Positions 1,255 to 44,515 of a stretch of 64,000 bases of DNA are shown here, one piece after another. This stretch comes from Paraniabella ginsengisoli (lineage in GTDB: Bacteria; Bacteroidota; Bacteroidia; Chitinophagales; Chitinophagaceae): contig NZ_JAKWBL010000004.1 of assembly GCF_022513635.1 (NCBI RefSeq), positions 248,001 to 312,000 of the forward strand, read 5' to 3'. The notes under the pieces are model-generated. The model was given only the letters and a program-made list of their open reading frames with translations, had not been told where the DNA came from and did not search any database. Numbering within the stretch: position 1 is the stretch's first letter; each line of letters starts with the position of its first letter. The position numbers and the translations under genes are program-made.

Positions 1255-2782
1255 CTAAAATAATTTCATTTGTTTTTTCGGATCGGCTTTACCCTTTGTA
1301 CGTTTCATTACCTCGCCTACGAATAAAGCCAATAACCCTTTTTACCTTTTTTATACGCAACAACTTTATCTGCTAATTGTTCCAAAACCGCATCTATCAC
1401 CGGCTCCAGCGCTGAGGAATCTGACTGTTGGATTAGGTTATTTTGCTCCGCAATTACGATCGGGTCTGCATCGGGATTTTGAAGAAGCAATGAAAAAGTT
1501 TAGTCGATGCTGCGGAAAAACTAAGCTTACCATCGTCCACACATTTTACCAGCGCCGCTATTTGCGATGGCTGCAAAGCAAAATCTGAAATAGGCTTAGC
1601 CTGGTCGTTCAGCCAGTTTTTTACTGGTCCTAACATCCAGTTGGCGACGGCTTTAGGCCGCCCCCGACCTTGGCCTCATCCGTCCGCTTAAGGCGGACAC
1701 CTTCTCCTGAAGGAGAAGGTGATTGGAAATCTATTTTATTTGGAAGAGGGGAGACGGAAACATCTCTTTTATTACCGCTTCAAAGTAATCAGCAGTTTCT
1801 TTTTCTTCTGTCAAAACCTGCGCATCGTATTCGGGTAACTGGTATTGCTCCTTATATATTTTGATGCGCTCCTCTGGTAACGCTGGTATGGATGATCGAA
1901 TTTCGTTGATAAATTCGTCTTTCAAATCAAAAGGTGTCAGATCAGGATCAGGAAAGTAACGATAGTCTTCTGCATCTTCCTTATCCCTTATTGCAAAAGT
2001 AGTTCCGTTGTTCGCGTCGAAACTGCGCGTTTGCTGGCGGATGGTTTCGCCGCTTTCAAGTATATTGATGAGGCGGTTTGCTTCAAAATCTATGGCTCGT
2101 TTTACATTGCGGATAGAGTTGAGGTTTTTAACTTCTACTCTTGTTCCCAGTTTTTCATCGCCTTTTTTCTTACAGAAATATTGGCGTCGCAACGCATGCT
2201 ACCTTCTTCCATATTACCATCGCAAACGCCTATATACCTAACTAATTTTCGCAGCTCGCTTACATAAGCAAATGCTTCATCGCTGCTGCGCAGATCGGGC
2301 TCAGTAACAATTTCGATAAGCGGCGTACCAGCGCGGTTATAATCTACAGCGGTGTTACTATCATTTACATCATGCAGGCTTTTGCCGGCATCTTCTTCCA
2401 TGTGAATACGATTCAGCCTTACATTTTTTTCACCTGCTTCTGTTTTTATAGCAACATATCCGTTTTTGCAAATCGGTGTTGTATGTTGAGAGATCTGATA
2501 TCCTTTTGGAAGATCGGGATAAAAATAGTTTTTGCGAGCGAAATAGTTTTTCTTTTCGATTTCGCAGTTGCAAGCCAATCCCATTTTGATGGCATGCCCA
2601 ATAGCTTGCCTGTTCATTTTGGGTAAACTGCCTGGGTGGGCCAAGGTAATTGGACTAACATGCGTGTTCGCATCAGCACCAAAAGCAATGCTGTCTCCAC
2701 AAAACAATTTGCTTTGTGTAAGTAATTGGGCATGTACTTCAAGCCCGATCACTATTTCGTATTGGTCGTTAACTGTACTCAT
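1255..2782 (-). CDS. gatB: Aspartyl/glutamyl-tRNA(Asn/Gln) amidotransferase subunit B (frameshifted)
   Basis: GatB is the kinase/transamidase subunit of GatCAB, which converts Glu-tRNA(Gln) and Asp-tRNA(Asn) to their amides in the cytoplasm. The start at 2782 opens with the diagnostic [13 protein letters not shown]. Further family blocks follow: [49 protein letters not shown], then the tail domain [15 protein letters not shown] and a YqeY-like C-terminus ending [16 protein letters not shown] at 1255. The gene is read in at least four pieces, with breaks near 2165, 1660-1735 and between 1255 and 1480. Corrected length is about 505 residues, slightly long because a palindromic element lies inside it (see 1657-1745). 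As an essential single-copy gene it is more likely mis-sequenced than dead. Confidence 0.9.
1657..1745. repeat. Palindromic repeat element inside gatB
   Basis: Two nested inverted repeats are visible on the plus strand: TCCGCTTAAGGCGGA around 1683-1697, and CACCTTCTCCTGAAGGAGAAGGTG with the tetraloop-like TGAA centre near 1699-1722. GC content is higher than in the flanks. Read on the gatB strand in the open frame it encodes [17 protein letters not shown] between the family blocks [10 protein letters not shown] and KAVANWML, where ordinary GatB has only a short linker. It resembles the elements in actE and alaS. Confidence 0.75.
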
Positions 2783-7635: not shown

Positions 7636-7666
7636 TCCCCTCTCCTTCGGAGAGGGTTGGTGAGGT
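7636..7666. repeat. Palindromic repeat abutting the coxC stop codon
   Basis: CCCCTCTCCTTCGGAGAGGG is a near-perfect palindrome. The element TTGGTGAGGT touches the TAG stop (complement of 7667-7669). It belongs to the family also seen at 10337, 15340 and 21135. Confidence 0.7.
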
Positions 7667-14727: not shown

Positions 14728-15427
14728 TTAATTCTTAGCCGTTGCTGTGCTATCTACTGCCGGAGCCGCTTCAGCCGGCGCCGCTTTCTTTGTTGTTTTG
14801 ACTTGATGTAAGCCACCACTTCCCAACGTTGCTTTGGTGTAAGCTGAGATGCATAGCTTCCCATTTGCCCTTTACCATAAGTAACAGAATAAAACATTGT
14901 TCCCGACGCCATTGCTATCATTTCGGCATCCATAAAGTTTTTAGGAGCAGCGGTAAATGGACCGTCGCCGCCTTTAAACAGTGGACCGTTACCATCTAAA
15001 GCAGCACCGTGGCAAACACCGCAATTGATCAAATAAAGTCTCTCGGCTTCTTTCATATTGATAGTAGCACCGCTATCCAAAGGATTTTTAAGGCTTGCAG
15101 ACTGAGCATAACCTAACGAATCATGCTTCAGGTCGAAATGAAAATCAAGGTCTTCTTCCCTGGAAACTGTGCCTTCAACCGGTAATCTGTTATAATATAT
15201 ATCTGAATCTTTCAGCTCCTGTGTAGGTGCGTAGGTTTCATATGCTTTACTATAATACATATCAGGCATATATGCTATACCAGGGTCTTTACCAGCGCCA
15301 CAACCCGCGGCCATCAAGCTTAGCATCACAACTGCTAAAGCCTCACCCCCAACCCCTCTCCTGAAGGAGAGGGAGATTTCAAGCCTCCCAAATTTGCTTT
15401 CTTCAAAAATTTTTTACATTTATTCAT
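14728..15427 (-). CDS. actE: Alternative complex III monoheme cytochrome c lipoprotein ActE (frameshifted)
   Basis: Periplasmic lipoprotein cytochrome that takes electrons from ActA. It contains one heme site, NCGVCHG, and a lipobox AVVMLSLMAAGC. The C-terminus is read in a second frame (one A missing near 14800), giving TTKKAAPAEAAPAVDSTATAKN and a stop at 14728. The start is uncertain. The uninterrupted frame begins inside the signal peptide, whereas the ATG at 15427 gives MNKCKKFLKKANLGGLK, then a palindromic repeat read as [10 protein letters not shown], then the hydrophobic core once one G is restored. That would place a repeat in the n-region of the signal peptide. Alternatively translation starts at the internal ATG near 15329. 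Confidence 0.82.
15340..15373. repeat. Palindromic repeat in the 5' end of actE
   Basis: GCCTCACCCCCAACCCCTCTCC, then TGAA, then GGAGAGGG. It has the same layout as the elements at 7636 and 10337 but is oriented oppositely to transcription. It overlaps the predicted signal-peptide coding region of actE. Confidence 0.75.
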
Positions 15428-41902: not shown

Positions 41903-44438
41903 ATGCAAAGAATTCTGACTATTTCTTTTGCAGCACTATTGAGCCTGCAAATTGTGGGGTGTGCTGCGCTTAAAAAGAATAAAAAAACCAGTCGCCACCA
42001 ACTACAGCCAAGGCGGATACTGCTAAGAAGGCGGCGATAGGACCTCCGGGACAGCCTAAGCCTTACAACGAAATCATCACCAGTAAAGCTATTACTACCA
42101 AGGGAATGTTTGCTGTACATAATGTCGACAACAAATATTATTTTGAAATTCCTAATGAAATGTTTGAGCGTGATATATTAGTAGTCGCGCGTCTTTCAAA
42201 GGCCGCCGCAGGTTTTAGAACCGGTGCAAGCTATGCCGGAGACCAAATCAATTCTAATACGATCCGCTTTGAAAAAGGCCCCAATAACCGGGTGTATTTT
42301 AAACGTATGTCTTTCCAGGAAGTGGGTCGCGACAGCACGGAAGGAATGTATCGAAATGTGATGAACAGTAATATACAGCCTATCGGCGCATCGTTTGAAG
42401 TAAAAGCCTGGGCGCCTAATAATAGCGGTGCTGTAATTGAGGTTACTGATTATATTAATGGTGATAATGATTATTTTTTCTTTTCTCCCGTTGTTAAAAA
42501 AATTCTAGGAATTGGAGCTCTTCAGTCAGATAAGTCTTATATACAAACTGCCAGAACTTATCCTACTAATCTTGAAATAAAAACAGTTAAAACCTATACC
42601 TATACACCGGTAACGCAGCCCGGAACTCCACCAAACCCCTATGCAGTAAGCACGCCATTAACATTTGAGCTGAATACGTCTTTGGTATTGCTTCCAAAAG
42701 TACCTATGCAGCCTCGGTTTTTCGATGATAGAGTGGGTTATTTTACAACGCAGAACATAACAGATTTTGATGTTAATCCCCAAGGTATTGACCGCTATCG
42801 CTACATTGCGCGGTACAGGTTAGAACCTAAAGATGAAGATGTCGAAAAATATAAAAGAGGAGAACTGGTTGAACCTAAAAAACAAATAGTTTATTATATT
42901 GATCCAACCACTCTAAAAAATGGATCCCATACTTAATAGACGGAGTAAACGATTGGCAGGTAGCATTTGAAAAAGCTGGATTTAAAAATGCCATCATCGC
43001 AAAAATTGCTCCTACTGATACCGAGGACAGTACATTCAGCCTTGAAGATGCCCGGCACAGCGCCATCATCTACAAGCCTTCAGATATACCAAATGCGAGC
43101 GGACCGAATGTTCATGATCCGCGTAGCGGGGAAATTATGGAAAGCCATATCAACTGGTACCATAATGTAATGAGCCTGGTGCGTAACTGGTATATGATAC
43201 AGACAGCAGCAGTAGATCCGAAAGCAAGGAAAATGGAGTTTGATGATGAGTTGATGGGGCAATTGATCCGATTTGTAAGCAGCCATGAAGTGGGGCATAC
43301 TTTAGGATTAAGGCACAACTTTGGCTCCTCATCAACTGTTCCAACCGAAAAGTTAAGAGATAAAGCATGGGTGGAAGCCAACGGCCACACTCCTTCTATC
43401 ATGGATTATGCGCGCTTCAACTATGTAGCACAGCCAGAAGACAATATTTCAGAAAAGGGGCTTTTCCCAAGAATTGGCGACTATGATATTTGGGCTATAG
43501 AATGGGGCTATCGCTGGTATCCGGAAGCAAAATCAGCCGATGGAGAAGTAGCGATGTTGAATAAAATAACGATGGATAAACTAAAGGATCAACGCCTTTG
43601 GTGGGGAGATGGTGAAGGCAATCGGGATGACCCAAGAAGCCAGACCGAAGACCTGACAGATAATACGATGAAGGCAAGTTCGTATGGTATCAAAAACCTA
43701 CAACGTATTATTATTAACCTGCAGCAATATACTTACCAGGCCAACAAAGATTATACAAACCTTGGAACTATTTATAACGAAGTTGTTGGACAGTTTGGGC
43801 GTTATGTAGGCCACGTTGCCAGAAATATCGGCGGCATTGAGCGTACACCCAAACGAGTGGAACAGAGCGGCGCCGTTTACGAGTTTACATCAAAACAAAC
43901 CCAGCTTGATGCAATGAACTGGTTAAAGGCCAATGTTTTTGCAACGCCTACCTGGATCATTCAGAAAGATTACGCGGCATTGACAGGACAGGAGCCATTA
44001 TCAGTAATGGCCAAAGTTCAGGATCGAGCTTTAAACGAATTGGTTAGCGCATCAACCATTAGTAAGCTGATCAGGTTTGAAGCTGAAGCAGGTGCTAAAG
44101 CTTATTCCTCTTTAGAAATGCTTTCTTCAGTTAGAAAGTCAATATTTTCAGAACTTTTGGGCAGAAAAGCCATTGATGTTTACCGCCGACAATTGCAAAA
44201 ATCTTTGGTTGAGAAATTGATTGCGTTGGCGAATCCTTCTAAACAGGAGCAGGCTTCGATGTCGAGAGGTTTGGAAATTAACCTTACTAATAGTGATATA
44301 ATGTCAACCATTAAAGGCCAGCTGCGTATACTGTCTTCTGAAATACGGACAGCTGCAAATAGTTACAGAGATACAGCATCGAAAAACCATCTGCTGGATC
44401 TTCAAGACAGGATTAAACAAGCTTTGGATCCGAAATAG
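41903..44438 (+). CDS. Zinc-dependent metalloprotease lipoprotein (frameshifted)
   Basis: Large exported metalloprotease of the Bacteroidota DUF5117/DUF5118-type group. The ATG at 41903 gives a lipoprotein signal (LLSLQIVGCAALKK). Near residue 465 lies SSHEVGHTLGLRHNFG, the extended HExxHxxGxxH metzincin zinc site, followed by a Met-turn-like SIMDYARFNY. Two breaks are homopolymer losses (AAAAAA near 41985, and six A for seven near 42917). Corrected length is about 845 residues. Probably a surface or periplasmic protease. The substrate is unknown. It ends just before a strong terminator. Confidence 0.88.
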
Positions 44439-44467
44439 GAGCAAGGATTATTCAAACCTTACTGCAC

Positions 44468-44515
44468 AGCCTCCGAAATTTGAGTTCAAATTTCGGAGGC
44501 TGTTTTATTTTCGAT
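44468..44515 (+). terminator. Rho-independent terminator of the metalloprotease gene
   Basis: AGCCTCCGAAATTT and AAATTTCGGAGGCT are exact reverse complements (14 bases) around GAGTTC, followed by GTTTTATTTT. Confidence 0.92.

Follow-up and report, generated by a model that had tools for sequence, protein, structure and literature searches.

The window, the 64 kb stretch of DNA analysed here, carries a gatB gene on its minus strand (1258..2782, approximate limits) which is broken into several frames in this assembly. Between the codons for EAVIK and KAVANW, this strand holds a segment of 112 nt (1655..1766) which amounts to 15 nt in most of the relatives that were read, a gain of 97 nt. The segment contains two hairpins and a tail, all on the minus strand. 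Hairpin 1 (CACCTTCTCCTTCAGGAGAAGGTG, 1698..1721), detected by pattern, folding and covariance models, is the core held in common with the ends of elements which carry a DUF559 gene. Hairpin 2 (GTCCGCCTTAAGCGGAC, 1682..1698) has the form GTCCGC-CTTAA-GCGGAC and occupies the spacer which separates hairpin 1 from the tail, whilst the tail (GGATGAGGC, 1673..1681) resembles the outer ends of DUF559 elements (GGGTGAGGT, GGGATGAGGC). The two inverted repeats were initially described as nested; they stand side by side instead, with base 1698 belonging to both. The gatB copy itself holds no DUF559.

The folding of the DNA between 1650 and 1745 has a z score of -3.4, with 0/200 shuffles folding as well, and the hairpin pattern (at most 3 mismatches) occurs twice in the window against a mean of 0.00 in 100 shuffles. 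A covariance model, R2, built from four two-hairpin (gatB-like) copies elsewhere in the genome and leaving gatB out, recovers the gatB copy at 67.9 bits (E 1.5e-17 in the window). A repeat search with default settings reported nothing at this site, where pattern, folding and covariance models did detect the palindrome. The palindrome is thus real, as the initial annotation held. It is highly improbable that it represents a chance hairpin or an assembly artefact, a reading for which the other frameshifts in gatB could be cited, given the score obtained with a model to which the gatB copy did not contribute and the presence of four other two-hairpin copies elsewhere in the genome.

The initial annotation also placed the element in frame, adding an SPSPSGEG peptide to GatB. 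As assembled, the SPSPSGEG reading shares its frame neither with GatB upstream of the insert nor with GatB downstream, and the two GatB parts also differ from each other in frame. A TAG lies immediately ahead of the hairpin, and the insertion measures +97 nt. The in-frame status of the gatB insert is therefore unproven. Additional frameshifts of 1 nt occur in gatB, away from the insert, and in leuS, which means that the assembly may contain indel errors, and sequencing indels may be the reason for the loss of register in gatB. The gene may also be subject to bypass or read-through. Several of the frameshifts in gatB and in leuS (locus L008) fall at or near homopolymers within these housekeeping genes.

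Two further copies lie in the window. They were scored with a second covariance model, R1, made from 16 ends of DUF559 elements, all from other genomes. A simple copy near the start of actE (hairpin and GGTTGGGGGTGAGGC tail, 15340..15375, minus strand) matches R1 at 49.7 bits (E 2.1e-9). It does encode the SPSPSGEG peptide attributed to it, but the frame soon hits a stop and is out of register with ActE as assembled, which carries on in another frame. The third copy (7636..7666, plus strand; 27.1 bits, E 2.2e-4) is found between two minus-strand ORFs. Elsewhere in the window, a perfect 18-bp inverted repeat (44466-44503) comes right after the ORF at 43137-44438 and is possibly a terminator.

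The palindrome family in relatives and in this genome

GatB was compared across 30 loci, one of them from this genome, with the fragmentary same-genus GatB of G196 left out. Among the 29 relatives, 20 were readable, 6 gave nothing and 3 were on the wrong strand. The palindrome is present in 0/20 of the readable sites, and no R1 match at E ≤ 0.1 was obtained in any of the 29 relatives' GatB loci. The 20 include 13 from the same genus; 12 of these have a spacer of five residues (e.g. HTKNY), and that of G195 is longer and different. The insert is thus lineage-specific as far as sampled, and the comparison answers the question of whether it is universally conserved in GatB: it is not.

Within this genome the palindrome is amplified, as had been supposed, with dozens of related copies in a genome of Bacteroidota type. 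BLAST identified four close two-hairpin relatives of the gatB copy (L002-L005), and a pattern search identified five simple copies, with CTCACC...CCTCTCC followed by GGAGAGG. R1 has at least 68 matches at E ≤ 0.1 and at least 45 at E ≤ 1e-3, the counts for R1 and R2 being lower bounds obtained from 150/822 and 150/849 first-look candidates, respectively. The top two R1 matches genome-wide are the ends of an element in leuS, and at least 43 copies sit elsewhere. The two-hairpin copies L002-L004 have longer common flanks, around AGGATAAACTGCC and TTAATTATAATCGG, and look like part of a larger composite repeat.

The gatB copy is absent from the genome-wide R1 list at E ≤ 0.1 (150/822 candidates scored), probably because its second hairpin occupies the spacer; in the 64 kb window R1 finds the hairpin part alone (20.9 bits, E 0.0055). 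R2, by contrast, detects genome-wide both gatB (E 1.1e-15) and the two leuS DUF559 ends (1e-4), thereby tying the two subfamilies together. A full-element precedent for the gatB anatomy is provided by L146, a DUF559 element of an AroC gene, in which an imperfect second hairpin occurs in each of the two end spacers.

Most copies in this genome are not seen to be translated, since 27 of the 30 R1 copies read are not crossed by an open frame reaching 40 aa to either side; the remaining three are the two in leuS and one in purH. Compared with letter shuffles, the palindromes show no enrichment of open frames (4.83 against 4.66 of 6).

Full-length elements and their ends

Missing from the initial annotation were the full-length members of the family, in which DUF559 lies between inverted palindromes within the frames of housekeeping genes, mostly in Bacteroidota. 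In leuS of this genome, two inverted simple copies stand 430 bp apart, both in frame and with a DUF559 domain between them, and the domain and both ends fall within one open frame of 520 aa. DUF559 (PF04480) has two matches above the Pfam cut-off in this genome, the second likewise bounded by inverted but more decayed copies, and is matched in 95/195 genomes of the family. The existence of DUF559-bearing full members in open frames implies that the palindrome is more than a tolerated repeat.

The relation between the two ends can be expressed as an inverted-pair score, the best match in inverted orientation of the 250 bp to the left of a DUF559 domain with the 250 bp to its right. Of 75 scored domains, comprising the top of a Pfam-based list and some chosen rows rather than every row, 54 reach a score of at least 16, compared with 0/70 control window pairs taken 1 kb outside, and 38/369 mismatched left/right pairs reach 16. 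The score is attained by 36/47 domains whose open frame spans at least 300 aa and by 18/28 of the others. In a second sample, taken from genome contigs, 49/76 loci reach it against 0/59 controls. No scored inverted pair accompanies 21/75 of the DUF559 loci in the first sample and 27/76 in the second.

The second sample was collected with a six-sequence DUF559 profile, the best 80 named loci, mostly from Bacteroidota, being kept. It is biased to the in-frame type because all six queries came from in-frame copies; the Pfam-based search of the family, of which 150 of 194 matches were used, is less biased. Five of the 81 domains in the second sample had too little flank for scoring, and locus L023 was dropped because L053 already represents that stretch of the genome. 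Of the 156 domain rows, three duplicate others (by inspection L021/L147, L025/L195 and L038/L223, the same genomes twice), slightly raising the clustering on the DUF559 tree (a DEXH pair is among them) and the element-length counts. A few loci of the second sample are labelled as other phyla, mostly metagenome bins, and these labels may be misassigned. The bins of L199 (Thermoflexales), L210 (Anaerolineales) and L216 (Elusimicrobia) have a nearly identical hairpin and GGGGTGAGG tail beside DUF559; the inverted-pair score is 26 in L216 and 11 in L210, L199 being unscored.

A common anatomy emerges from these loci: (A/G)CCTCACCCC-NN-hairpin, about 60 nt, DUF559, about 20-80 nt, and hairpin-NN-GGGGTGAGG(T/C). 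Where variants occur both ends change together, as in GCCTCCCC.../...GGGGAGGC. The 78 distinct ends, which were selected by a GAGG-tail motif, are GGGG(T/A)GAGG-like. A supposed inner box beside the hairpin, TCGGAGTCT, was found as an exact pattern in just 1/254 loci and was not used further. No constant repeat indicative of a fixed target duplication is evident at the element junctions. Both ends are matched by the motif in 32/156 elements, over which length modulo 3 varies; for the 27 in-frame elements with both ends matched, the remainders 0, 1 and 2 are represented by 12, 6 and 9 elements.

The solo palindromes co-occur with DUF559. At least 3 R1 copies are present in 44/95 genomes with DUF559 and 6/100 without it, in statistics which, like those given below for resident types and for Y1, are not corrected for phylogeny, and after subtracting two ends per DUF559 the figures are 32/95 and 6/100. 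These family-wide counts are lower bounds, with 35 candidates scored per genome and one sequence type covered by R1, and on this footing 40/95 DUF559 genomes show no R1 copy. There are 16 genomes which have R1 copies yet no DUF559 match, among them G039 with 32, G045 with 18 and G189 with 12. Hairpins more than 450 nt from DUF559 match the resident type in 13 cases within the same genome (62 per Mb) and in 8 cases in other genomes (1.2 per Mb); the 40 stretches used are all DUF559 neighbourhoods, so that local clustering may add to this.

The palindromes could instead be REPs moved by a Y1 (HuH) transposase of the RAYT type, the DUF559 genes being hot spots for REP insertion. RAYT genes have a layout of repeat, gene and inverted repeat, which the DUF559 elements resemble, and Y1_Tnp is common, with matches in 144/195 genomes of the family. 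Genomes with at least 3 R1 copies are also somewhat commoner with a Y1 match (44/144) than without one (6/51). The association with DUF559 is stronger, however: among the 51 genomes without a Y1 match, at least 3 copies occur in 6/16 of those with DUF559 and 0/35 of those without. The ends on the two sides of DUF559 match each other, whereas the one Y1 locus found in this genome, which is frameshifted (L011, G000:C4:672914-676108, about 1340-2000), is flanked on both sides by a different palindrome pair, GATCCGGGAGTTTGACTCCCGG (CCGGGAG...) and GAAGTCCTTCGGACTTC. In view of the other palindromes at the genome's own Y1 locus and the weaker association, the Y1 transposase was set aside as the mobiliser and this explanation is considered unlikely.

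The nuclease and its host genes

A DUF559 profile matches PDB entries 3hrl (E 1.4e-32) and 3r3p (E 2.3e-5), the titles of the latter naming a 'Mobile intron protein' and the catalytic domain of I-Bth0305I. A model of one DUF559 domain (pLDDT 84.3) gave similar results in a Foldseek search, with 3hrl at E 4.4e-9, I-Bth0305I at 8.3e-5 and, weakly, Vsr at 0.04. Fifteen columns are invariant in 24 DUF559 sequences, including the candidate catalytic residues E17, D45, E56, H62 and D71. DUF559 has the PD-(D/E)XK / Vsr-like nuclease fold, together with its conserved acidic residues.

Residence of DUF559 within the frames of host proteins is widespread. Seventy of the 150 rows from the Pfam-based search lie within open frames of at least 300 aa, and the 100 domain rows in such frames from both samples (47/75 and 53/81) fall into 18 host clusters. 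By inspection, 8 of the 100 occupy the N-terminus of a protein (ArgB, IspF, SpoU-type, L045 and L163) and the remainder are embedded, some of the ORFs being cut by contig or locus ends. Sixteen host ORFs were named by NCBIfam, and include LeuRS, MetRS, IleRS, ValRS, MetH, chorismate synthase (AroC), RecG, IcmF, CinA, IspG, a RecB-like helicase, a ligase-associated helicase and HsdR. Other hosts we take, from sequence alone, to be ArgB, IspF, a SpoU-type protein and adenine deaminase. The NCBIfam matches of the 16 ORFs include no intein model at the thresholds used and among the best 25 families per protein.

The HVGH and KMSK columns are invariant across 13 aligned LeuRS fusions, and there is a single match to the LeuRS query in 58/59 relatives' genomes, this one included, the exception being G012 with two matches on two contigs. 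The fused LeuRS is thus probably the working enzyme, and the fusions would be made as such. In an AlphaFold2 model of one LeuRS fusion, DUF559 has a pLDDT of about 75 and is flanked on either side by a stretch under 50 which corresponds to a translated element end. The overall quality is medium (mean pLDDT 68.9, pTM 0.46, 13 sequences, with residues 1-129 mostly below 50), so the contrast between domain and linkers is the one feature taken from it, and that lightly.

LeuRS frames hold other insertions too. Locus L053 has two DUF559 domains in two different loops of one frame of 1315 aa, and the cut loci L020 and L189 encode a double-DUF559 LeuRS of at least 1084 and 840 aa. Short tandem repeats of the ATTCAGC, AATTCTC, ATTCAAA and AATTCAC types are translated in LeuRS, so that the palindromes are not the one kind of repeat to enter coding sequence. 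They are found at the DUF559 loop in the relatives L116-L118, L121, L129, L131 and L136; the LeuRS of this genome has a tandem repeat, NSQFTIHNSQFT, away from the DUF559 loop (L008, about 1140-1175).

The different forms of the element use common sites. In the LeuRS loop before TTRPDT, full elements are present in this genome, G013 and G012, and the same-genus G189 has a short two-ended form in frame (GCCTCACCCCCAACCCC...GGGGGATGAGGC) without DUF559; neither form is found in 26/30 loci. PurH of this genome contains an in-frame solo, QLIAD-LTPSPSPKERGEMS-DEAVFAI, and in the same loop PurH of G195 has an in-frame two-hairpin insert. The spacer is somewhat longer in G204 and G189 and is short in 17 of the 21 loci which were readable among the 30 examined. 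Together the LeuRS and PurH cases indicate that full, miniature and solo forms share sites. The suggestion that the palindrome is tolerated inside coding sequence accordingly holds for purH and leuS here and for leuS of G189, all in frame, but is not supported for gatB and actE as assembled.

It is conceivable that the DUF559 domains have been domesticated for a useful role, for example in repair or defence, the palindromes being ordinary repeats. A RecG site common to four loci, labelled Flavobacterium, Maribacter, Croceitalea and a Limnohabitans MAG, could reflect retention of this kind. The same domain is present, however, in unrelated enzymes, and in LeuRS it is absent from most relatives; moreover the palindrome-derived parts are predicted with low confidence in the model, as linkers would be. 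Domestication is therefore regarded as very unlikely.

The labels of the insertion sites cluster on a tree of DUF559, with 26 changes against a minimum of 16 and a shuffled mean of 55.6, and 0/200 shuffles as low. The RecG, IleRS, HsdR, ValRS and IcmF1 insertions are each on one side of a branch, and the LeuRS1 site requires 15 changes for 29 rows. The tree is based on 106 columns and leaves 63/150 of its inner branches open, and some of the clustering is due to near-copies. The clustering and the changes at LeuRS1 point to a site being inherited or homed into and, provided that the tree is right, to repeated entry into the same site. An account confined to site-specific homing would have DUF559 cut the uninterrupted host gene, with gene conversion following and the solos being decayed remnants. 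The relation to I-Bth0305I and the five insertions lying on one side of a branch suit this account, which is nevertheless unlikely in the face of the repeated changes at LeuRS1, the many hosts and sites used and the copies, at least 43 besides the leuS ends, that are dispersed elsewhere in the genome.

A proposed mobile element and its relation to known systems

The gatB palindrome is a lineage-specific insert belonging to a repeat family whose full-length form carries DUF559 and resides in the open frames of essential genes. The best explanation, to which we give a probability of about two in three, is that the family represents a mobile DUF559 element which is translatable and does not splice, and that gatB has received a non-autonomous copy of its terminal unit. 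This explanation draws on what the sequences show of the anatomy, the open-frame residence, the presence and absence at shared sites, the relation of the gatB palindrome to DUF559 ends, the co-occurrence of the two and the relation to homing endonucleases. Mobility and the role of the nuclease we infer from these, and both are well motivated.

A full element of about 440-650 bp would consist of a tail, a hairpin, a DUF559 gene of about 105 codons, a second hairpin and a second tail, the ends being inverted with respect to each other. The terminal unit, hairpin and CCTCACCCC / GGGGTGAGG tail, would be what was copied into gatB. Since an element can be open from end to end, insertion in phase at a loop of some housekeeping protein would yield a translated extra domain, the translated ends forming short linkers (PSPKGEG-like peptides), and the host protein would survive without splicing. 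The DUF559 nuclease, as the putative mover, may nick or break DNA at targets, at the hairpin ends or at both, and on repair the break would acquire a copy of the element or of an end unit. Miniatures with two ends, and solo ends, would be moved in trans, as is thought to be the case for REPs and RAYT transposases.

There is perhaps an even chance that this amounts to a class of selfish element, a palindrome-ended DUF559 cassette which spreads into essential genes, is translated without splicing and mobilises solos of the gatB type in trans. In that case the cassette would supply the mobiliser so far missing for palindromic repeats that lie in frame in Bacteroidota, and perhaps more widely. To the question of how palindromic repeats enter coding genes, and which enzyme moves those with no known transposase, the family brings a specific candidate partner, DUF559. 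The proposal would also account for odd inserts of PSPKGEG type in bacterial enzymes, and the insertions would provide natural maps of insertion-tolerant loops.

A number of parallels can be drawn with known systems. Rickettsia palindromic elements are palindromic repeats found in frame within unrelated protein genes (PMC10969869, in the part available), and the comparison made with them in the initial annotation is apt by effect, given the in-frame copies in conserved genes, here purH and leuS and in G189 leuS. That part of the source mentions no nuclease-bearing partner, whereas the full-length members of the present family carry DUF559.

In REP/RAYT systems a nuclease gene lies between inverted palindromes and many solos occur per genome, as described in parts of two sources (PMC6006769, PMC3733652). 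The many solos of this genome are comparable, two of its at least 45 R1 copies at E ≤ 1e-3 being DUF559 ends. The partner there is a Y1/HuH protein, in contrast to the Vsr-like DUF559 nuclease, and many full DUF559 copies reside in the open frames of housekeeping genes. The tags differ as well, being GTAG or CGTC in REPs as opposed to GGGGTGAGG, or GGATGAGGC in gatB, among ends selected by the GAGG motif. At the one Y1 locus found in this genome, the Y1 gene is not flanked by the present repeat. The CGTC repeats seem to lack a dedicated transposase, according to the available part of PMC3733652. Bacterial MITEs find a likeness in the two-ended miniatures of leuS (G189) and purH (G195), which lack DUF559, but may differ in that no constant target duplication was found for the present elements.

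Among DUF559 proteins, VsrA of Caulobacter has been linked by experiment to a DNA damage response in a methyltransferase mutant, for which it is responsible, and has been proposed to be a mismatch repair enzyme (PMC12907096, in part). It has the domain in common with the present elements; palindromes and in-frame residence are not mentioned in the portion of that source available. In the open-licence literature of PubMed Central, outside which most subscription journals fall, no description was found of DUF559 with flanking palindromes or residing in frame.

The closest counterpart of the nuclease is I-Bth0305I, a Vsr-like (EDxHD) homing endonuclease (background in the available part of PMC3943268), to which DUF559 is related in sequence and fold, and the present elements reuse host sites. 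Unlike this system, the DUF559 element, whose homing is only putative, needs no intron or other self-splicing part, its frame being open throughout. If this reading is right, being tolerated as a translated domain would join introns and inteins as a third means by which a nuclease gene can inhabit an essential gene.
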